Shown here: positions 13,535 through 22,203 of the stretch, one piece after another
How the letters are laid out: each line of letters begins with the position of its first letter
Position numbering within the stretch: position 1 is the stretch's first letter
Origin: Pseudomonas tensinigenes
GTDB lineage: Bacteria; Pseudomonadota; Gammaproteobacteria; Pseudomonadales; Pseudomonadaceae
Direction: 5' to 3'
Assembly: GCF_014268445.2 (NCBI RefSeq)
Contig: NZ_CP077089.1
Span: 3,031,501 to 3,095,500 of the forward strand
Length of the DNA: 64,000 nt
Program-made: the position numbers and the translations under genes
The notes under the pieces: model-generated
The model's database searches: none
The model's input: only the letters and a program-made list of their open reading frames with translations
What the model was told of the DNA's origin: nothing

Positions 13535-13559
13535 CCTTACCGACTTACACAAACCCCCT

Positions 13560-13647
13560 GTGGGAGCGAGCCTGCTCGCGAAGGCTGCGTGTCAGTCGCC
13601 ATCATTGCTGAAATAACCACCGCTTTCGCGAGCAGGCTCGCTCCCAC
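13560..13647. repeat. REP inverted pair
   Basis: Two REP units (GTGGGAGCGAGCCTGCTCGCGAA) in inverted orientation, about 40 bases apart. They lie between the oxidoreductase and the GntR regulator. Confidence 0.92.
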
Positions 13648-13703
13648 ATTGGGCAGTACGTCGTCGTATCTAAGGTTATGCCCATTCGGTATTTCTCAAC
13701 CTT

Positions 13704-13751
13704 GTCATAACAACTCTAAGATCACGTCATAACTCGTTATAACATGTGATC
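13704..13751 (+). promoter_or_regulatory. Candidate GntR operator cluster
   Basis: Just before the GntR gene are GTCATAAC (13704-13711), GTCATAAC (13726-13733) and the palindrome GTTATAAC (13736-13743). The latter two sit inside an outer inverted repeat, GATCAC (13720-13725) and GTGATC (13746-13751). Short AT-rich palindromes of this kind are usual GntR/HutC sites. The position, ending 6 bases before the start codon, fits autoregulation of the whole cluster. Confidence 0.5.
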
Positions 13752-13756
13752 CCGCG

Positions 13757-14509
13757 ATGACCGATAACGTTCTCTCTTTAAGCAGCGTCCCGCTGCACAC
13801 CCAACTGCGCGACGTCCTCCGTGCGCGCATCCTCGACGGCGAATACCCGCAAGACAGCCAGATGCCCTCCGAAAGCGAACTAGGTGCCTTGTTCAAAGTC
13901 AGCCGCATCACCGTGCGCCAAGCCTTGGGCGACCTGCAAAAGGAAGGGCTGATCTTCAAGATCCACGGCAAAGGCACCTTCGTCGCCAAGCCGAAAACCT
14001 TTCAAAACGTCAGCAGCCTGCAAGGCCTCGCCGAGTCGATGACCGGCCGTGGCTACGAGGTGATCAACCGCCTGCGCAGCTTCAAATTCATCCCGGCCGA
14101 CAAGCGCGTCGCCGAGCGTTTGCAAGTTGCCGAAGGCGAAACCGTCGCGCAGATCAAACGCGTACGCCTGATCAACCGTGAGCCGATCTCGCTGGAAATC
14201 ACCTATCTGCCCAAAGCCGTCGGCGAGCGGCTGGAGAAGGCCGATCTGGTCACCCGCGACATCTTTCTGATCCTTGAAAACGACTGCGGCATCGCCCTCG
14301 GTCACGCCGATCTGGCTATCGACGCGGTGCTGGCCGACAGCGACCTGACCCAGGCGCTGAACGTCGAGGCCGGTTCGCCGATCATGCGTATCGAACGCCT
14401 GACCCACGACGCGCAAGGCCAGCCGCTGGACTTCGAACACCTTTATTACCGTGGCGATGCGTTCCAGTACCGCCTGCGGATCGACCGGCAAAAAGGGGAG
14501 CAGGCATGA
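13757..14509 (+). CDS. GntR-family (HutC/UTRA) transcriptional regulator
   Basis: 250 residues. The N-terminal winged helix-turn-helix (about residues 12-75) includes MPSESELGALFKVSRITVRQ and IHGKGTFVAKP. The C-terminal UTRA ligand-binding domain (about 95-240) has the family sequence PISLEITYLP and ends with DFEHLYYRGDAFQYRLRI. Its stop codon overlaps the start of the flavoprotein gene (ATGA), so the regulator is the first gene of the operon it presumably controls. The effector is unknown; it is likely a substrate or product of the flavoprotein/ABC-importer pathway downstream. Confidence 0.92.
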   Translation: MTDNVLSLSSVPLHTQLRDVLRARILDGEYPQDSQMPSESELGALFKVSRITVRQALGDLQKEGLIFKIHGKGTFVAKPKTFQNVSSLQGLAESMTGRGYEVINRLRSFKFIPADKRVAERLQVAEGETVAQIKRVRLINREPISLEITYLPKAVGERLEKADLVTRDIFLILENDCGIALGHADLAIDAVLADSDLTQALNVEAGSPIMRIERLTHDAQGQPLDFEHLYYRGDAFQYRLRIDRQKGEQA

Positions 14510-16236
14510 CCCGCAACGTGCTCGAACAGGAATACGACATCGTCGTCATCGGCGGTGGCACCGCAGGCCCGATGGCCGCGATCAAGGCCAAGGAAAAGAA
14601 CCGCGATCTGCGCGTGTTGCTGGTCGACAAGGCCAACGTCAAACGCAGCGGCGCCATCAGCATGGGCATGGACGGCCTGAACAACGCGATCATTCCCGGC
14701 CACTCGACGCCCGAGCAGTACACCAAGGAAATCACCATCGCCAACGACGGCATCGTCAATCAGGCCGCCGTTTACGCCTACGCCACCCACAGCTTTGAAA
14801 CCATCGAGCAGCTGGACCGCTGGGGTGTGAAGTTCGAGAAGGACGAGACCGGCGATTACGCGGTGAAAAAAGTCCACCACATGGGCGCCTACGTGCTGCC
14901 GATGCCGGAAGGGCACGACATCAAACAGGTCCTTTATCGCCAGTTGAAACGTGCGCGAGTGAGCATCACCAATCGCCTCGTTTGCACGCGGTTGCTGACT
15001 GACGCGGAGGGCACCGTCAACGGTGTGATGGGCTTCGACTGTCGCAGCGCTGACTTCCATGTGATCAAAGCGAAAGCCGTGATCCTCGCCTGCGGTGCCG
15101 CCGGACGCCTCGGTCTGCCGTCGTCGGGTTACCTGATGGGCACTTACGAAAACCCGACCAACGCCGGCGACGGTTACGCGATGGCCTATCACGCCGGCGC
15201 CGAACTGGCCAACCTCGAGTGCTTCCAGATCAACCCGCTGATCAAGGATTACAACGGCCCGGCCTGCGCCTACGTCACCGGCCCGCTGGGCGGCTACACC
15301 GCCAACAACAAGGGCGAACGCTTCATCGAGTGCGACTACTGGAGCGGGCAGATGATGTGGGAGTTTCATCAGGAACTGGAGAGCGGCAACGGCCCGGTGT
15401 TCCTCAAACTTGATCACCTCGCGGAAGAAACCATCCAGAACATCGAGGAAATTCTGCACAGCAACGAGCGGCCGAGTCGCGGTCAGTTTCACGCCAATCG
15501 CGGCACCGATTACCGCACGCAGATGGTTGAAATGCACATCTCCGAAATCGGTTTTTGCAGCGGTCACTCGGCGTCCGGTGTATGGGTCAACGAACGCGCC
15601 GAGACCTCGGTGAAGGGTTTGTACTCGGCGGGTGACATGGCCGCTGTGCCGCACAATTACATGCTCGGTGCCTTCACCTACGGCTGGTTCGCCGGGCATA
15701 ACGCCGCAGATTTTGTCGCCGGCCGCGAGTTTTCTGCGCTGGACGCCGAGCAGATCGAGAAGGAAAAGGCCCGGGTCTACGCACCGCTGGATCGCGAACA
15801 CGGTCTGCCGCCGGCGCAGGTCGAGTACAAGCTGCGGCGTTTCGTCAACGATTACCTGCAACCGCCGAAAGTCACCAAGAAGATGCAGATCGGCCTGCAA
15901 CGCTTCAGCGACATCGAACGCGATCTCGAGCAGATGAAGGCCAACAACGCCCACGAACTGATGCGCGCCATGGAAACCAGCGTGATTCGCGATTGCGCCG
16001 AAATGGCCGCGCGTGCCTCGTTGTTCCGCGCCGAAAGTCGTTGGGGCCTGTACCACTATCGCATCGACCACCCGCAGCGCAACGACAGTGAATGGTTCTG
16101 CCATTGCCATTTGAAGAAGGGCGATGACGGCCAGATGACCAGTTTCAAGAAAGCCGTCGAGCCTTACATCATCCCGCTTGATGCCGAGGAAATGCAGGCT
16201 TACGACCGCTTGCGGGTCGGCGCTTTCGCCGCTTGA
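14506..16236 (+). CDS. FAD-dependent flavoprotein, AprA/fumarate-reductase-like
   Basis: 576 residues. The FAD-binding dinucleotide fold is at the N-terminus (DIVVIGGGTAGPMAA, residues 11-25), with further FAD contacts around AVILACGAAGRLGLP and GLYSAGDMAAVPHNYMLGAF. The overall plan and the pairing with a two-cluster ferredoxin resemble adenylylsulfate reductase alpha (AprA) and the fumarate reductase/succinate dehydrogenase flavoprotein family. However, the cluster has no other dissimilatory sulfur genes (no sat, no dsr), so real AMP-sulfite chemistry is doubtful. It overlaps the GntR gene by 4 bases and precedes the ferredoxin by 28 bases. It probably oxidises or reduces a compound brought in by the adjoining ABC importer. 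The active-site residues could not be checked by alignment. Confidence 0.8.
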   Translation: MTRNVLEQEYDIVVIGGGTAGPMAAIKAKEKNRDLRVLLVDKANVKRSGAISMGMDGLNNAIIPGHSTPEQYTKEITIANDGIVNQAAVYAYATHSFETIEQLDRWGVKFEKDETGDYAVKKVHHMGAYVLPMPEGHDIKQVLYRQLKRARVSITNRLVCTRLLTDAEGTVNGVMGFDCRSADFHVIKAKAVILACGAAGRLGLPSSGYLMGTYENPTNAGDGYAMAYHAGAELANLECFQINPLIKDYNGPACAYVTGPLGGYTANNKGERFIECDYWSGQMMWEFHQELESGNGPVFLKLDHLAEETIQNIEEILHSNERPSRGQFHANRGTDYRTQMVEMHISEIGFCSGHSASGVWVNERAETSVKGLYSAGDMAAVPHNYMLGAFTYGWFAGHNAADFVAGREFSALDAEQIEKEKARVYAPLDREHGLPPAQVEYKLRRFVNDYLQPPKVTKKMQIGLQRFSDIERDLEQMKANNAHELMRAMETSVIRDCAEMAARASLFRAESRWGLYHYRIDHPQRNDSEWFCHCHLKKGDDGQMTSFKKAVEPYIIPLDAEEMQAYDRLRVGAFAA

Positions 16237-16264
16237 TACATCAATAAATCAAAGAGTCCGAACC

Positions 16265-16510
16265 ATGGCCTATCAAGCTCAGGAAATCTTCTTCCGCTCC
16301 AACGCCCCCGTCACCGTGGACGAGGACAAATGCATCGCCGAAAAAGGCTGCACCGTGTGTGTCGACGTTTGCCCGATGGACTTGCTGGCGATCAACCCGG
16401 CGACGCAAAAGGCCTACATGGCGTTCGATGAATGCTGGTACTGCATGCCGTGCGAGAAGGATTGCCCGACGGGTGCCGTCAAGGTCGAGATCCCCTATTT
16501 ATTGCGTTGA
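16265..16510 (+). CDS. Two-[4Fe-4S] ferredoxin, AprB-like
   Basis: 81 residues with two cluster motifs: C-x5-C-x2-C-x3-CP (CIAEKGCTVCVDVCP) and C-x2-C-x2-C-x3-CP (CWYCMPCEKDCP). The longer gap in the first motif resembles AprB-type subunits. It is much shorter than the AprB of sulfate reducers, which has a C-terminal tail. It most likely passes electrons to or from the flavoprotein encoded immediately upstream. The ATG at 16265 is preferred; the longer open frame reads back into the flavoprotein gene. Confidence 0.85.
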   Translation: MAYQAQEIFFRSNAPVTVDEDKCIAEKGCTVCVDVCPMDLLAINPATQKAYMAFDECWYCMPCEKDCPTGAVKVEIPYLLR

Positions 16511-16523
16511 CCCCAGATCCACT

Positions 16524-16611
16524 GTGGGAGCGAGCCTGCTCGCGAATGCGATTTTTCATTCACAAATGATGGTGACTGGCACGCCGCCTTCGCGAGCAGG
16601 CTCGCTCCCAC
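16524..16611. repeat. REP inverted pair
   Basis: GTGGGAGCGAGCCTGCTCGCGAA and its inverted copy, between the ferredoxin and the ABC substrate-binding protein. It may partly uncouple expression of the two halves of the cluster. Confidence 0.92.
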
Positions 16612-16741
16612 ATTGGAATCGAGACAACCCAAAGCCATCCGGAAACACCGGACGCTGGATTCACCGAAAACCCCTCGTTTCCCACCGCGCCCTGATCGCG
16701 GCGGAGACGAACTCAAATAAATGATTCGAGGGGATACAACC

Positions 16742-18133
16742 ATGTTGCGAGCAGCAATCGCCGGTCTGGTACTGGCTTCGTTCACCGTGTCGGCCTCGGC
16801 CGAAACCATCCGTATCGCCATCGGCACCCAGGACACCACCATCAACTGCGCCGCCGGCGGCTTGTTGATTCGTGAGCTCGGTCTGCTCGACAAATATTTG
16901 CCCCACGACGGCGCCTACAAAGACGCCAAATACGACGTGCAGTGGAAGAACTTCACCAGCGGCGCGCCGCTGACCAACGAGATGGTCGCCGGCAAACTCG
17001 ACTTCGGCGCCATGGCCGATTTCCCCGGTGCGTTCAATGGCGTCGCGTTCGAAACCGCCGGCAAGCACAGCCTGTTCATCAGCGTTTTGTCGGGGAGCAT
17101 CAAGGGCAGCGGCAACGGCATCGTCGTGCCGAGTGCATCCGGTGTGCAGGCGCTCAGCGAACTCAAAGGCAAGACGATTTCTGTGCCGTTCGCCTCCACG
17201 GCCCACGGCATGTTGCTGCGCGCGGTAGCGGCGCAGGGCTGGGATCCGCTCAAGGACGTCAACATCATTGCCCAGCCGCCGGAAGTCGCCGGCTCCGCGT
17301 TGCAGGCCGGCAAGATCGACGCCCACGCTGATTTTGTGCCGTTCGCCGAACTGTTCCCGAGCCGGGGTTTCGCCCGCAAGATTTATGACGGCGCTCAGGC
17401 CAATGCGCCGACGTTCCATGGTGCGCTGGTGGATCAGGCGTATGCGAAGAAGTACCCGGAAGTCGTCGTCGCGTACCTGCGCGCGAGTATCGAGGCCAAT
17501 CAATTGCTCGCCGCCGAGCCTGAGAAGTACAGCGAGCTGATCGCCAAAGTCACCGGCGTCGATGCCGAGGTGAATTACCTGTTCCACGGCCCGCTCGGCG
17601 TGCAGACCCGCGACCTGAGCTGGAAGCCGGAATATCGTCAGGCGGTTGGTACGGCCATCGATACGTTGAAGCTGTTGAAGAAGGCTGATCGTGGGCTCGA
17701 TCTGAATACGTTTATTGACGATCAATACATCCGGGCGGCGTTCAAGGCGTCGAACCTGGATTACACGGCGCAGTTGGCCAACTACGCGCAGACACCGTTG
17801 AAGGCTACCGGTAAAGCGATCACTGACTTTAGCCACGTTGCAGAAATCTGGGTGCGCGGTGAGAGCAAGGTGCGGCAGTACGCGTCTGCGGAAGAGGCGT
17901 TCGCTGCACTGGCCGCGTTGAAGCAGGAAGGCAAAACCATTCGCGCGGTGTATGCGCAGGCCAGTGACAGCGGGATCAAGTTGCTCGCGGAGCAGGCGTG
18001 GTTTGCCAGTGATGAGAAGGGACGGTTAAGTGCGTTTTTGCTTAAGGGGCAGGCTCAGCAATATGCCTCGGCGCAGGGTGGCAAGGTTTTTGACTTTACG
18101 GATGCCACGACCCAAGCGGTTGCTGCTCGCTGA
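16742..18133 (+). CDS. ABC transporter substrate-binding protein, NitT/TauT type
   Basis: 463 residues with a signal peptide (MLRAAIAGLVLASFTVSASA, then ETIR). The mature part starts like nitrate/sulfonate/taurine-binding proteins (IRIAIGTQDTTINCAAGG), followed by a periplasmic-binding-protein fold with LKGKTISVPFASTAHGMLLR. It is over 100 residues longer than the usual SsuA/TauA protein, with an extra C-terminal domain (about residues 330-463) that I do not recognise. The ATG at 16742 follows GAGGGG; an in-frame ATG at 16721 would spoil the signal peptide. Permease and ATPase genes follow after a repeat. The ligand is unknown, perhaps a small organosulfur or carboxylate compound. Confidence 0.88.
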   Translation: MLRAAIAGLVLASFTVSASAETIRIAIGTQDTTINCAAGGLLIRELGLLDKYLPHDGAYKDAKYDVQWKNFTSGAPLTNEMVAGKLDFGAMADFPGAFNGVAFETAGKHSLFISVLSGSIKGSGNGIVVPSASGVQALSELKGKTISVPFASTAHGMLLRAVAAQGWDPLKDVNIIAQPPEVAGSALQAGKIDAHADFVPFAELFPSRGFARKIYDGAQANAPTFHGALVDQAYAKKYPEVVVAYLRASIEANQLLAAEPEKYSELIAKVTGVDAEVNYLFHGPLGVQTRDLSWKPEYRQAVGTAIDTLKLLKKADRGLDLNTFIDDQYIRAAFKASNLDYTAQLANYAQTPLKATGKAITDFSHVAEIWVRGESKVRQYASAEEAFAALAALKQEGKTIRAVYAQASDSGIKLLAEQAWFASDEKGRLSAFLLKGQAQQYASAQGGKVFDFTDATTQAVAAR

Positions 18134-18147
18134 TTGAAAATCAAAAG

Positions 18148-18355
18148 CCCCTCACCCTAGCCCTCTCCCAAAGGGAGAGGGGACTGACCGAGGTGTTCGG
18201 GCAAGGTACGCCGACCTGAAATACCGAGTCGAACTCAGGTTCTGAAAAGCATGAAGATCAGCTCCCTTTCAAGCTGAGCGCAGGTTTTGAAAAGCGTGAA
18301 GATCGGCTCCCTTTCCCCCTCGCCCCCTTGGGGGAGAGGGCTGGGGTGAGGGGGT
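18148..18355. repeat. CCTCACCC/CCCTCTCCC dispersed repeat
   Basis: This starts with CCCCTCACCCTAGCCCTCTCC, GGGAGAGGGGACTGACCGAGG and a diverged GACCTGAAA block, and ends with the inverted GGGGGAGAGGGCTGGGGTGA. Inside, a segment of about 50 bases (TCAGGTTCTGAAAAGCATGAAGATC-like) is present twice. The 265 bases between the binding-protein and permease genes hold nothing else. Confidence 0.8.
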
Positions 18356-18398
18356 AAATCTCAGCCACAACACAGATCCAGAACTGGAAACCCGCTCC

Positions 18399-19178
18399 AT
18401 GAAAACACCCATCCGCTGGACATCAAGAGCCGCCTCACTGCTGCTCTGCCTGCTGTTCTGGCAACTCGCCGCCAGCCACCACTGGAACCTCGGCCTCGTC
18501 ACCTTCGCCAACGTGCCGACACCTATCGCGGTGATCGAAGCGGCATTGGGCCTCGGCGACTCCGGCAAGCTCCTGCAACACCTGAGCGCCAGCCTCAGCC
18601 GCGTGTTCGCCGGTTACCTCGCCGCACTGCTGATCGGCATCGCCCTCGGTCTGGCCATCGGCCGCTCGAAATGGGCCGAAGACCTGCTGCTGCCACCCCT
18701 CGAAGTCCTGCGCCCAATCCCTGCGGTCGCATGGATTCCATTGGCCATCCTGATGTTCCCATCGTCCGAACTGTCGATGGTCTTCATCACCTTCACCGGT
18801 GCGCTGTTCCCGATCCTGCTCAACACCGTGCACGGCGTCGAAGGCGTCGACCCACGCCTGATCGCCTCAGCGAAAAGCCTCGGGGCAGGGCGCCGCGCAA
18901 TCCTGCTCGAAGTGATCCTGCCCGGCGCTGCGCCCAGCATCATCACGGGTCTTGCGATCGGCATGGGCACTTCGTGGTTCTGTCTGGTCACGGCAGAAAT
19001 GATCTCCGGCCAGTTCGGCATCGGTTACTACACCTGGGAGTCCTACACCATTCAGAACTACGCCGACATCGTCGTCGGCATGTTGCTGATCGGCGTGTTG
19101 GGCATGGGCAGCAGTCTGCTGATCAAACGCCTCGGCGGGTTGTTCACGCCCTGGCATCGACCGCGAGGAAAAGCCTGA
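18399..19178 (+). CDS. ABC transporter permease, SsuC/TauC type
   Basis: 259 residues with about six membrane segments and the inner-membrane EAA loop (PRLIASAKSLGAGRRAILLEVILPGAAPSI read in parts, about residues 150-178). The sequence PLEVLRPIPAVAWIPLAIL is typical of nitrate/sulfonate/taurine permeases. The stop overlaps the ATPase start by one base (TGATG). It should form the homodimeric channel for the binding protein upstream. Confidence 0.92.
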   Translation: MKTPIRWTSRAASLLLCLLFWQLAASHHWNLGLVTFANVPTPIAVIEAALGLGDSGKLLQHLSASLSRVFAGYLAALLIGIALGLAIGRSKWAEDLLLPPLEVLRPIPAVAWIPLAILMFPSSELSMVFITFTGALFPILLNTVHGVEGVDPRLIASAKSLGAGRRAILLEVILPGAAPSIITGLAIGMGTSWFCLVTAEMISGQFGIGYYTWESYTIQNYADIVVGMLLIGVLGMGSSLLIKRLGGLFTPWHRPRGKA

Positions 19179-20026
19179 TGAGCGTGATGCAAACCCCTGA
19201 GGGGCGGATCGACATTCGCCAACTGTCCATCGTTCTCGGCGCAGGGCGGGAAGCGTTCGAAGCGGTGCGCGAACTCGATTGCCAGATCGAACCGGGCCAG
19301 TTCGTCTGTATTCTCGGCCCGTCCGGTTGCGGTAAATCGACCTTGCTCGGTGCGTTGGCCGGGCATCTGAACGCGCACGCCGGCAGCCTGAAAGTCGATG
19401 GCGCCGCAGTGTCCGGTCCATCACCGCAGCGCGGCATGGTGTTCCAGCATCACACGCTGTTTCCCTGGCGCACGGTGCGTGACAACGTGGCTTTTGGCCT
19501 GAAGATGCGCGGCATCGGCAAGGCCGAACGTCATCGTGCTGCCGATGACATCCTCAAGCTGGTCGGCCTCGAAGGCTTTGCCGAACGCTGGCCCGATCAG
19601 CTGTCCGGCGGTATGCAGCAACGCGTCGAGATCGCCCGAGTGCTGGTCAATCGGCCACGGCTTTTGCTGATGGACGAGCCGTTCGGCGCGCTGGATGCGC
19701 TCACCCGTTTGAACATGCAGGAACTGCTGCTGGACATCTGGACGCGGATCCGCACCACGGTGGTGTTCGTCACTCACGACATCGACGAGGCGCTGTTCCT
19801 CGCCGACCGCTTGCTGGTGATGAGCGCACGACCGGGGCGAATCATCGAAGACTTGCGCCTGGATTTCGCCCGGCCACGCACCAGCGAACTGGTCACCAGT
19901 CCTGAATTCTCGCGCCTCAAGCGCCACTGTCTCGACCTGCTGCGCCACGACGATGACCGACCGCTGCCGCGCCTCAATCCGCTCGGCCTGCCTCCTGAAA
20001 ACCCTTTGCCGCGATTTGCCCTATGA
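19178..20026 (+). CDS. ABC transporter ATP-binding protein, SsuB/TauB type
   Basis: 282 residues. Walker A is GPSGCGKST (47-55), the signature is LSGGMQQRVEIAR, Walker B is LLLMDEPFGALD, and the H-loop is VTHDIDEALFLADR. I chose the ATG at 19178 because it overlaps the permease stop and follows GAGGAA; the longer open frame starts inside the permease gene. The stop overlaps the HEAT-repeat gene by 4 bases, showing tight coupling. It energises the uptake of the unknown substrate. Confidence 0.93.
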   Translation: MSVMQTPEGRIDIRQLSIVLGAGREAFEAVRELDCQIEPGQFVCILGPSGCGKSTLLGALAGHLNAHAGSLKVDGAAVSGPSPQRGMVFQHHTLFPWRTVRDNVAFGLKMRGIGKAERHRAADDILKLVGLEGFAERWPDQLSGGMQQRVEIARVLVNRPRLLLMDEPFGALDALTRLNMQELLLDIWTRIRTTVVFVTHDIDEALFLADRLLVMSARPGRIIEDLRLDFARPRTSELVTSPEFSRLKRHCLDLLRHDDDRPLPRLNPLGLPPENPLPRFAL

Positions 20027-20985
20027 CCTCTATTTTTGCTGTGACCGATAACGATGAAATCCTCGCCCTGCAACCGCGCCTCACTGCCGAGGATGCCGGT
20101 GTGCGCCGTATTGCGCTGATTGATCTGGCGGATCTCGAAGAGCCGGATGGCTTGCTTTGGCTGGTCGATCGCCTCGGCCAGGATCCCGCTGAAGACGTCC
20201 GCGCTGAAGCCGCGCGTTTGCTGGAGGCCTGGGAGGATGAAGACGTTGTGCAAGCCTTGTGCGAGGCGCTGACCGACCCGTCGCCCGCTGTGCAATCTGC
20301 CGCTGCACAAAGTCTGAGCCTGCTCAAGACTGAAGCGGCGGGGCGGGTGATTCTGCCGTGGACCGATCACGCCGACGTCAGTGTGCGCATCGCCGCGTTT
20401 CGCGCCTTGCGCGAATTGCGTTTCGCCGACGCGGCTCCTTCAGCCGTCGCGGCATTGAACGATGCCGACGCTAATGTCCGTCGCGAAGCCGTCGGCGTGC
20501 TCGGCTGGCTCAAACAACTCGACGCACTGCCAGCCCTAGCGCGATTGGCCAGCGATGATCCGGACACCGAAGTGCGCCGCGCCGCCACCGGTGCTCTCGG
20601 TTTGGCCTCCAGTGCTGAAGTCCTGCCAGCTCTGCGCCAGGCCTTGCAGGACACTGCCTGGCAAGTGCGTGAAGAGGCCGCAACGACATTGGGCAAAGTC
20701 GGCCACCAAGACGCCGGCCCGGCCTTGGTCGAAGCGCTGAGCGATGACTACTGGCAAGTGCGCCTGCGCGCCACTCGCAGCCTCGGTCGGCTGCGTTTCG
20801 CTCCAGCGCTGGACGCGTTGATCGAGACCCTCGGCCATCGCATCAGCAACCTGCGCAAAGAGGCCGCGCTGGCCTTGGGTGAATTGAATGATCGTGGTGC
20901 TGTGGCGGCATTACAGGCCGCCAAGGACGACGGCGACCCGGAAGTGCGCAAAGCCGTGCGCATCGCCTTGAGTCAATTGCAATGA
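20023..20985 (+). CDS. HEAT-repeat (PBS-lyase type) protein
   Basis: 320 residues made of about nine to ten helical repeats of roughly 31 residues, each with the pattern DxxxxVRxxAxxALG (for example VRREAVGVLGWL, VRRAATGALGLA, VREEAATTLGKVG, VRLRATRSLGRL). There is no signal peptide or membrane segment. Proteins of this type act as scaffolds or as maturation and protein-protein interaction factors. The 4-base overlaps with both the ATPase and the DUF971 gene argue that it belongs to the same process. It could be an assembly factor for the flavoprotein/ferredoxin or a regulator of the importer; neither is shown. Confidence 0.87.
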   Translation: MTSIFAVTDNDEILALQPRLTAEDAGVRRIALIDLADLEEPDGLLWLVDRLGQDPAEDVRAEAARLLEAWEDEDVVQALCEALTDPSPAVQSAAAQSLSLLKTEAAGRVILPWTDHADVSVRIAAFRALRELRFADAAPSAVAALNDADANVRREAVGVLGWLKQLDALPALARLASDDPDTEVRRAATGALGLASSAEVLPALRQALQDTAWQVREEAATTLGKVGHQDAGPALVEALSDDYWQVRLRATRSLGRLRFAPALDALIETLGHRISNLRKEAALALGELNDRGAVAALQAAKDDGDPEVRKAVRIALSQLQ

Positions 20986-21260
20986 ACCCGCTGTCGGTGG
21001 GTAATTCACAGAGTGAAGGGACGCTACGCCTGAGCTGGCCGGATGGCCGCGAACAACAGCTCAACCACGCCGAACTGCGCCGCCAATGCCCGTGCTCGCA
21101 ATGCCGCGCGTTTCGCCTCAAAGGCCTGACGCCGCTGGTTGATGAGCGCGTGCGCCTGATCGAACTCAACCCCCAGGGCTACGGCGTGCAACTGGTGTTC
21201 AGCGACGGCCACCAGCGCGGCATCTACCCGTGGGCCTACCTGGCAAACCTCAACTCTTAA
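20982..21260 (+). CDS. DUF971 (GBBH-like N-terminal) protein
   Basis: 92 residues of the DUF971 family, with the typical LRLSWPDGREQQL start, a Cys-rich motif CPCSQCRAFR that may bind metal, and the ending DGHQRGIYPWAYL. The domain is also found at the N-terminus of gamma-butyrobetaine hydroxylase and in proteins linked to Fe-S biology. The start overlaps the HEAT-repeat stop (ATGA). With a two-cluster ferredoxin in the same operon, a role in Fe-S assembly is possible but inferred. Confidence 0.88.
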   Translation: MNPLSVGNSQSEGTLRLSWPDGREQQLNHAELRRQCPCSQCRAFRLKGLTPLVDERVRLIELNPQGYGVQLVFSDGHQRGIYPWAYLANLNS

Positions 21261-21278
21261 CCTGACAAATATCCAAAT

Positions 21279-21366
21279 GTGGGAGCGAGCCTGCTCGCGA
21301 ATGCGGTGGTTCATTCAGCGTTGATGGCGACTGATATACCGCCGTCGCGAGCAGGCTCGCTCCCAC
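21279..21366. repeat. REP inverted pair
   Basis: Two inverted GTGGGAGCGAGCCTGCTCGCGA units. They lie between the converging DUF971 and porin-pseudogene ends. Confidence 0.92.
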
Positions 21367-21382
21367 AGGTGGTCAGCGTTTT

Positions 21383-22120
21383 TCAGAAGGATTTGCTGAC
21401 GCTGGCGACGACGGTGGCAGTGCAGACATCCTTGAAGCCCCAGTTGCTCAGACATTGGGTTTGTGAGAGATCGGTGTCGATGTAGCTCAGGCCCAACACC
21501 ACGCCGGCCAGATTGTGGGTGAGTTTCACCTCCCATTCGCGGTACGACTCTTCGGCGCTACCGGACGCCGAATACAAATGCGGATCCTTGAAATCCATAT
21601 TGCCGTAACGCAGCTTCAAGCCTGAATCGTACGGCAATTCAGTTTCATAACTGATGTAGGTATAGAGCGAGTTCTGCTGGCTATCGATCCCCGGCGCATC
21701 GCTGGAGTAATACGCCGCCAGTTTCACCCCATAAACCCCGAGAATCCCGTAAACCTCGCTCTGGTTGAACTGGCTTTCCTTGGGGTAGGCGTACTTGATG
21801 TAACCCAGATCGAGACTGACATCCTCGGTCGCCTGCCACAGCCAACCGCCTTAGTAATCGACTTCCTGACGGGTTTTCAGGTCGCCGCCGAAATCGACGT
21901 TGGAGCTCCACGCACCAAGGTACAGGCCGCTGCTGTGGGCGAGGGTCAAACCGGCTTGAGCGGCGGGGTCATTTTGCGTTTGCGAGATGCCGCGGGTGCG
22001 GTAATCGCTGGCGAGGGTCAGGTCTACCTCCAGCGCAAAGTCATCGTTCAAGGGGATCGCTTGGCTGCTCAACGGCAGCAGACTGAAAAAAATCAGGGCG
22101 AACAGGGGCAAGGCTTTCAT
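21383..22120 (-). pseudogene. TorF-family putative porin, interrupted by a nonsense codon
   Basis: From the ATG at 22120 the frame encodes a signal peptide (MKALPLFALIFFSLLPLSSQA) and then ALEVDLTLASDYRTRGISQT, the characteristic start of TorF-type porins. At nt 21851-21853 the frame hits TAA after EVDY. It then continues in the same frame with GGWLWQATEDVSLDLGY through to a normal barrel end, VVASVSKSF. A Tyr codon at that place would restore one product of about 245 residues. So this is a single-base nonsense change, not a frameshift. Unless read through, the product is a fragment of about 89 residues. A sequencing error cannot be ruled out. Confidence 0.82.
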
Positions 22121-22203
22121 GTGAAGTCCCGATGTTGTGATTATTTTTGGGCAGTACGAAAACTGTGGGGGGGAATGCAATCTCAGCCACCCTCACAAAC
22201 TCT

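Follow-up and report, generated by a model that had tools for sequence, protein, structure and literature searches.

A candidate sulfate-starvation operon for sulfonate sulfur, encoding a PRK08275-type flavoprotein, in Pseudomonas tensinigenes

The single-contig 6.62 Mb genome of Pseudomonas tensinigenes (NZ_CP077089.1) was analysed over positions 3031501-3095500, a stretch of 64,000 nucleotides referred to here as the window. At window positions 13757-21260, it carries genes for a GntR regulator, a flavoprotein, a short ferredoxin, an ATP-binding cassette (ABC) importer, a HEAT-repeat protein and a DUF971 protein, in which an earlier reading of the DNA (the original prediction) had seen a generic redox cluster. 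These genes are now placed in the sulfate-starvation response, most likely for sulfonate sulfur. The reading preferred here, which is given a probability of about 0.6, is that they form an operon which, under sulfate starvation, obtains sulfur from an organic sulfonate, or a close anion, taken up by the cell. For the chemical step, the hypothesis is either direct reductive desulfonation by the flavoprotein or the supply of electrons to an oxygenase.

Operon layout

The features of the operon and its promoter are listed in window coordinates. Protein families were assigned by a Pfam search (E-value 0.001) and by NCBIfam profiles with their curated cut-offs.

13676-13695, +: sulfate-starvation box of the TTATGCNNAAANNRTATTTC type, 2 mismatches, 81 nucleotides before the GntR start codon; putative CysB-type site
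13700-13715, +: second GntR operator-like palindrome, imperfect, 2 mismatches (genome pattern search)
13732-13747, +: predicted GntR operator palindrome ACTYGTYATRACAWGT (pattern search and orthologous promoters)
13757-14509, +: GntR/UTRA regulator, probably a substrate-sensing repressor (GntR and UTRA families)
14506-16236, +: flavin adenine dinucleotide (FAD) flavoprotein of the PRK08275 family, relative of AprA and the PAPS reductase alpha subunit with an altered active site (FAD_binding_2 and Succ_DH_flav_C; alignments)
16266-16511, +: short, AprB-like ferredoxin of 81 amino acids (two 4Fe-4S-type motifs with a tryptophan within CWxC, read from the sequence)
16514-16616, no strand: hairpin repeat within the operon, resembling repetitive extragenic palindromic (REP) elements (repeat search)
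16742-18133, +: periplasmic binding protein, SsuA/TauA-related, with a C-terminal NosL-like domain (NMT1/NMT1_2)
18399-19178, +: ABC permease of the NtrB/SsuC/TauC type (BPD_transp_1)
19178-20026, +: ABC ATPase of the TauB/NtrD type (ABC_tran)
20023-20985, +: HEAT-repeat protein, counterpart of the C-terminal part of PRK13800 (HEAT_2; NCBIfam)
20982-21260, +: DUF971 (GBBH-like_N) protein with a CPCxxC motif (Pfam; motif read from the sequence)

The eight co-directional open reading frames (ORFs) of the original prediction and their overlaps of 1-4 bases were confirmed from the sequence, the overlaps being 4 bases between regulator and flavoprotein, 1 between permease and ATPase, 4 between ATPase and HEAT protein and 4 between HEAT and DUF971 proteins. 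Repeats lie in the 230 bases that separate ferredoxin and binding protein and in the 265 bases from binding protein to permease, and a single transcript is therefore not proven.

Promoter elements

The regions upstream of the GntR gene share two elements, a box and a palindrome, and the predicted GntR operator sits between the box and the gene. If up to 3 mismatches are allowed, 72 of the 84 promoters from Pseudomonas and its kin contain the box, TTATGCNNAAANNRTATTTC, which lies 79-92 nucleotides before the start codon among the distinct variants listed. In the present genome, some matches immediately precede genes for sulfonate-type binding proteins, a tauD-like gene or an amino-acid-type ABC transporter. 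As judged by coordinates, seven sulfur regions contain 7 of the 30 forward matches and none of the 28 matches to the reversed pattern, five of these regions having been picked via the forward pattern.

A matrix trained on 55 distinct boxes of orthologous promoters, all of other genomes, gave scores of 24.2 at the tauD-like gene, 19.5 at the ABC transporter, 18.9 at a LysR/sulfatase-like pair, 18.5 at tauA, and 15.7, 21.0 and 19.3 upstream of three binding-protein genes, as compared with a maximum of 10.1 across 13 arbitrary 20-kb stretches (260 kb). Among the products of the box-linked genes, two exceed the TauA cut-off (443 and 432 bits; cut-off 304.25) and one that of SsuA_fam (214.2; 163.5). 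The others match sulfur-type or transporter families with scores below the full-protein cut-offs, namely the tauD-like protein (243.2; 313), the sulfatase-like protein with its best model (338.7; 900), the binding protein at 4094577 (64; 163.5) and the amino-acid-type ABC permease. The same genome encodes SsuD (634.5 bits; cut-off 518.2) and SsuE (240.6; 164.05). Thus shared, the box is good evidence that the operon would belong to a sulfate-starvation regulon. The activator acting there is probably of the CysB type, by analogy with the Pseudomonas biology outlined in the available part of the UW4 genome paper (PMC3596284).

The palindrome ACTTGTYATRACAAGT was present with up to 2 mismatches in 83 of the 84 Pseudomonas and kin promoters and in 18 of 27 others, with about 0.2 per 84 expected from shuffled sequence at 3 mismatches. 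The only exact match to ACTYGTYATRACAWGT in the genome is that in the window promoter (13732-13747), and one site with a single mismatch lies at 3666063; at 2 mismatches the reversed control gave more matches (15) than the pattern (6). Occurring in one promoter, the box and the operator suggest a two-key control, by starvation and by substrate. In betaproteobacterial promoters (survey loci L005, L136, L169 and L171), a related box of the form ATATCNGAAATNNTTCGTT was seen, by eye only, at a similar distance upstream of the GntR gene.

Importer and binding protein

For all three parts of the importer, SsuABC/TauABC models are among the best curated ones, with every score under its cut-off. Among the solved relatives of the binding protein, the top two bind taurine and sulfonates. 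The original prediction had held that the cluster did not serve ordinary sulfonate use. This was misleading, given these relatives and the promoter box that ties the operon to the taurine and sulfonate-uptake genes of the genome. The operon differs from SsuABC and TauABC systems in that its binding protein carries the NosL-like domain and no SsuD or TauD is encoded within it; the tauD homologues found and the ssuD of the same genome both lie far outside the 64-kb window.

The NosL-like domain (about 17837-18118) scored 23.9 bits in the window piece (cut-off 24) and 29.2 in the Leptolyngbya protein, and was also matched in relatives from Variovorax, Rhizobium and Leptolyngbya, mostly under the cut-off. 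NosL is a protein that helps to supply nitrous oxide reductase with copper. The NosL-like part encoded in the window has, by eye, no Met or Cys, and copper binding therefore looks unlikely.

On a Leptolyngbya plasmid (L007, 6382-8415), the regulator, 678 amino acids long, combines LysR with an NMT1-type binding domain in one protein and may sense the imported compound directly.

Flavoprotein

The flavoprotein is a member of PRK08275 (1135.3 bits; cut-off 587) and falls below the cut-offs of the AprA model TIGR02061 (197.6; 641.75), the SdhA/FrdA models TIGR01812 (165.6; 567.3), TIGR01816 (127.2; 727.35) and TIGR01176 (119; 932.7), and PRK13800 (866.3; 1196). Its best named matches are from Pseudomonas, for example P. 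rustica, P. fluorescens and P. koreensis. In most named rows among the matches listed, the protein is called fumarate reductase or succinate dehydrogenase, a naming that the present evidence does not support. The models PRK08275 and PRK13800 likewise bear the title of a fumarate reductase/succinate dehydrogenase flavoprotein subunit, which is a label rather than an established function. The family appears compact, since among the 60 matches listed from 217 plasmid records those covering at least 80% of the flavoprotein share 63-82% identity and the next at most 28%.

The nearest solved chain is the alpha subunit of the 3'-phosphoadenylylsulfate (PAPS) reductase of Methanothermococcus thermolithotrophicus (8A8O), which matches over the full length (216.9 bits; 627.8 bits by profile), followed by Archaeoglobus fulgidus AprA (2FJA/1JNR), aligned over nearly the full length. 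In AprA, we take Tyr95, Trp234 and Arg265 to be residues of the adenylylsulfate (APS) site and Asn74 and His398 to lie at the flavin; Arg265 and Trp234 presumably hold the sulfite group. In a first alignment, Asn74 and His398 correspond to Asn59 and His354 of the flavoprotein, kept in 9/9 family rows, and Tyr95, Trp234 and Arg265 are replaced by Glu75, Tyr214 and Leu245, again in 9/9. A second alignment of 21 rows, some of them partial, has Tyr214, Leu245 and His354 in all 21 and Glu75 in 18 of the 19 rows covering it. The APS loop around Gln145 has given way to a near-invariant KVHHxGxYVLPMPEG, with the second His in 8/9 rows and the Glu in 7/9. The M. thermolithotrophicus enzyme, unlike the flavoprotein, has Arg and Trp at the positions of Arg265 and Trp234, and a homologue from Ilyobacter, encoded beside cysC and cysD, retains Tyr, Trp and Arg at the AprA positions. 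According to the accessible part of PMC10322725, Gln145 of the loop is conserved in APS reductases.

The simplest reading is that the flavoprotein is an enzyme with a different but conserved substrate. Identity with AprA is ruled out by the score far under the cut-off together with the replaced APS-site residues and loop, and 'AprA-like', as the original prediction had it, does not stand as a functional label, the alignment to the AprA active site showing the APS-site residues to be lost.

Ferredoxin, HEAT and DUF971 proteins

The ferredoxin had no Pfam match of its own at an E-value of 0.001, but its eight cysteines are arranged as two 4Fe-4S-type motifs, and Fer4 domains occur in the listed relatives of a homologue. 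With the flavoprotein, it resembles AprAB of A. fulgidus in the common FAD subunit, the AprB-like two-cluster ferredoxin and the equivalents of Asn74 and His398. AprB has a long tail, which the window ferredoxin lacks.

PRK13800 covers both the flavoprotein and the HEAT protein, which in the window are separate genes matching the corresponding halves of the model (positions 11-566 for the flavoprotein and 611-896, 82.4 bits, for the HEAT protein). This supports the HEAT protein as a direct or structural partner of the flavoprotein, and so agrees with the scaffold-type role first suggested for it. The DUF971 protein is plausibly a factor for iron-sulfur (Fe-S) centres. At the Leptolyngbya locus, an Mrp/NBP35-type iron-sulfur carrier follows the HEAT gene, where other loci carry DUF971 or other genes.

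Conservation of the neighbourhood

Related loci were collected by tblastn with the window proteins and plasmid proteins, the importer being counted under strict thresholds. The 129 loci comprise 80 from Pseudomonas, 19 from a phylum sample (21 matching genomes among 398), 17 from one further, apparently Burkholderiaceae-like, family (from 16 of the 109 matching genomes among 299) and 13 from plasmids (217 records with a match). Within the genus, the flavoprotein occurs in 50 of 149 genomes; the genus and phylum figures include the present genome.

The ferredoxin gene directly follows the flavoprotein gene at every locus (80/80, 19/19, 17/17 and 13/13; 129/129), and ferredoxin, HEAT and DUF971 genes occur together within 8.5 kb at 76/80, 19/19, 15/17 and 9/13 loci (119/129), which bears out the expectation of a conserved module. 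The same importer type was found at 75/80 Pseudomonas, 17/19 phylum, 8/17 family and 10/13 plasmid loci (110/129). All four components are present at 74/80 Pseudomonas loci; among those falling short, four lie on short pieces (6.8-13 kb), and L085 and L091 carry a different ABC transporter in place of this importer type. Another ABC transporter at L133 was excluded under the strict thresholds. The regulator is of the GntR type at 79/80 Pseudomonas, 9/19 phylum, 17/17 family and 7/13 plasmid loci, and of the Crp/Fnr type at 10/19 phylum and 6/13 plasmid loci. The co-occurrence of all eight families across genomes, proposed as a check of the cluster, thus holds for flavoprotein, ferredoxin, HEAT and DUF971 and fails as a whole because the regulator and the importer are exchangeable. 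The core is the flavoprotein, ferredoxin and HEAT protein, nearly always with DUF971, and the importer is frequent but replaceable.

In Pseudomonas sp. SLFW (L065, upstream of 8998), no GntR gene was found beside the cluster, and ORFs at this site resemble, by eye, a cysteine desulfurase, a C-S lyase and a regulator of the Lrp type. Luciferase-type flavin mononucleotide monooxygenases adjoin the cluster in Cupriavidus (L004, with SsuA/ABC genes) and at L175, an arrangement resembling a sulfur-scavenging island. Plasmid pTcM1 of Acidithiobacillus caldus (L006, 10574-14035) has flavoprotein, ferredoxin and HEAT genes beside FdxA and an FAD protein of 1153 amino acids. In the window itself, the REP-like repeat of 103 nucleotides occurs in three copies (13550-13652; 16514-16616, in the gap between ferredoxin and binding protein; and 21269-21371), and beside the operon, at 21383-22180 on the minus strand, two ORFs of the same direction resemble one interrupted outer-membrane-type protein.

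Electron supply and sulfite export in relatives

When genes near the cluster were grouped in search of extra partners, most of the large groups looked like antisense or frame-shifted shadow ORFs of core genes, and only a ferredoxin-NADP+ reductase (FNR)-like protein and PF03601 were used. The FNR-like protein occurs at 12 of 44 loci outside the Pseudomonas sets, and its best NCBIfam match is ferredoxin-NADP+ reductase, under the cut-off (two members checked; three by Pfam). A YeiH-type exporter of PF03601 occurs at 6 of the 44 (two members checked, one annotated). FdxA is near the cluster at 4/19 phylum, 2/17 family and 2/13 plasmid loci (8/49), and TauE/SafE exporters are annotated at 2/13 plasmid loci, those of Leptolyngbya and Aquabacterium. 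In organisms that use sulfonates, sulfite is exported by TauE and SuyZ-type (PF03601) proteins. The present genome encodes Fpr (67% identity) and FdxA (60% identity), both elsewhere; a second FNR-like frame of this genome, at genome positions 5950640-5951392, contains one in-frame TGA. From the FNR, FdxA and exporter neighbours of the relatives, we infer that the enzyme would be driven from reduced nicotinamide adenine dinucleotide phosphate (NADPH) in the reducing direction, with sulfite as the product.

Comparison with known systems and alternative functions

The preferred reading has to be set beside the asf system, asfRAB of which reportedly sufficed for P. aeruginosa to use arylsulfonates. 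As described in the available portion of PMC4267179, asfRABC comprises a binding protein with an ABC-type transporter, a reductase and ferredoxin and the LysR regulator AsfR, and in P. putida S-313 it is active when sulfate is limiting, and aromatic sulfonates require it, whereas aliphatic ones do not. From this description, the flavoprotein and ferredoxin of the window are possibly of the AsfAB family. As an asf-type system, the flavoprotein and ferredoxin would be an AsfA/AsfB electron-transfer pair feeding a separate, less specific oxygenase such as SsuD, which the present genome encodes, in the attack on arylsulfonates, and the binding protein would be AsfC. The order of regulator, reductase, ferredoxin and binding protein and the apparent sulfate-limitation control fit (PMC4267179, in part), AsfA and AsfB of C. 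metallidurans, from asfRAB, have adjacent locus tags in the corresponding part of PMC2864759, and the taxa reported with asf, soil Proteobacteria that for asfA include Variovorax, Cupriavidus, Burkholderia and Pseudomonas, are those of the flavoprotein family or their close kin (excerpts of PMC2864759 and PMC9694294). However, AsfR is a LysR protein, whereas the window and 79/80 Pseudomonas loci have GntR, and HEAT and DUF971 proteins are not named in the available parts of the published description (PMC4267179, PMC2864759). No AsfA or AsfB name was found among the 120 relatives listed (of 1361 found, and 581 in a second search), many of which are nameless or have shortened names. A strongly conserved substrate-like pocket, moreover, suits an enzyme better than a pure electron carrier. 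On balance, an asf-type function is judged rather improbable.

An assimilatory APS or PAPS reductase of the AprAB type, as in M. thermolithotrophicus, would account for the closest solved chain and for the AprB-like ferredoxin gene adjoining the flavoprotein gene; the M. thermolithotrophicus enzyme acts on PAPS within sulfate assimilation (PMC10322725, in part). But the flavoprotein scores far short of the AprA cut-off, its APS-site residues and loop are replaced throughout the 9 family rows, unlike those of the Ilyobacter homologue, and an importer with a sulfonate-binder-type protein would have no obvious place, all of which makes this function highly improbable. The operon might also encode a redox pathway for a non-sulfur compound, such as a nitrogen or carbon source, with an enzyme drawn from the AprA superfamily by chance. 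As a class, NMT1-type binding proteins serve many different ligands, and GntR regulators are typical of carbon and nitrogen catabolism. This is nevertheless considered unlikely in view of the promoter box common to tauA and other sulfur-type genes, the sulfite-exporter-type neighbours in some relatives and the taurine and sulfonate proteins that are the best solved relatives of the binding protein.

A number of findings weigh against sulfonate scavenging by the operon. The genome-wide count of TTATGCNNAAANNRTATTTC matches at up to 3 mismatches, 30 compared with 28 for the reversed pattern, says nothing by itself, and the matrix score of the window box, 31.8, is no test, because the training set includes a relative with an identical box. 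Five of the seven sulfur loci had been selected via the looser box, and only tauA and the LysR/sulfatase-like pair by homology alone. No good box precedes the ssu operon of this genome (score 4.1, in the opposite orientation), and no gene start accounts for a matrix site of 12.6 near 468549. The binding protein scores 122.9 with SsuA_fam (cut-off 163.5) and 94.8 with TauA (304.25), and its third solved relative was deposited as a nitrate transport protein; the sub-cut-off SsuA_fam score and this relative make the sulfonate substrate class weak. Exporters, FNR and FdxA are found at only a minority of loci. The structure predictions for the flavoprotein and the binding protein are poor (mean predicted local distance difference test scores of 57.4 and 56.5), neither being of usable quality, and with the equivalents of Arg265 and Trp234 lost from the flavoprotein, a direct attack on sulfur is not assured.

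In a literature lacking most subscription journals, no paper was found that assigns this gene set. The available portions of papers on dimethyl sulfide use in Acinetobacter, on Rhodococcus IGTS8, on Pseudomonas UW4 and on root-exudate transcriptomes make no mention of the cluster, and, by title, opening of the abstract and term counts, none of the papers listed for HEAT or DUF971 with sulfur treats it.

Proposed mechanism

For sulfonate scavenging, the following course is proposed, in which flavin and Fe-S chemistry on an imported compound, as originally suggested, remains plausible. A CysB-type starvation activator would act at the box at -81, and the substrate or a derivative would release the GntR protein from the palindrome. 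The compound would be taken in by the SsuA/TauA-like ABC importer, as its homology suggests. Electrons might flow from NADPH via ferredoxin-NADP+ reductase and FdxA to the ferredoxin with its two clusters and on to the FAD of the flavoprotein, which, with the Asn and His of APS and PAPS reductases at the flavin and a conserved pocket of its own, would attack the sulfonate sulfur. The sulfite released would serve cysteine synthesis, and any excess may be exported in some relatives. The HEAT protein would be a structural partner of the enzyme, as PRK13800 indicates, and the DUF971 protein would serve in Fe-S insertion or assembly. In its most specific form, this proposal makes the complex of flavoprotein, ferredoxin, HEAT and DUF971 proteins a reductive desulfonase with the AprAB fold, in which the sulfite group of an organic sulfonate would pass directly to flavin N5, with no oxygen needed. 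This is a tentative possibility, more doubtful than the scavenging role itself.

Implications

How aromatic and other recalcitrant sulfonates are opened enzymatically has, to our knowledge, yet to be worked out at the biochemical level. The greater part of the sulfur in soil is organic, as stated in the available parts of PMC4267179 and PMC9694294. If the reductive desulfonase is real, it would be a second chemistry, beside the oxygenases SsuD and TauD, for obtaining sulfonate sulfur in aerobic soil bacteria, and would extend APS-reductase chemistry to carbon-bound sulfur. If the flavoprotein and ferredoxin are instead an asf electron-transfer pair, HEAT and DUF971 partners and a likely electron source would be added to asf, and if AsfA is of the PRK08275-type flavoprotein family, the operon would be an asf variant encoding additional proteins. 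For a step of the soil sulfur cycle that is still little understood, the operon offers a complete and widespread candidate, with regulatory evidence for its role.

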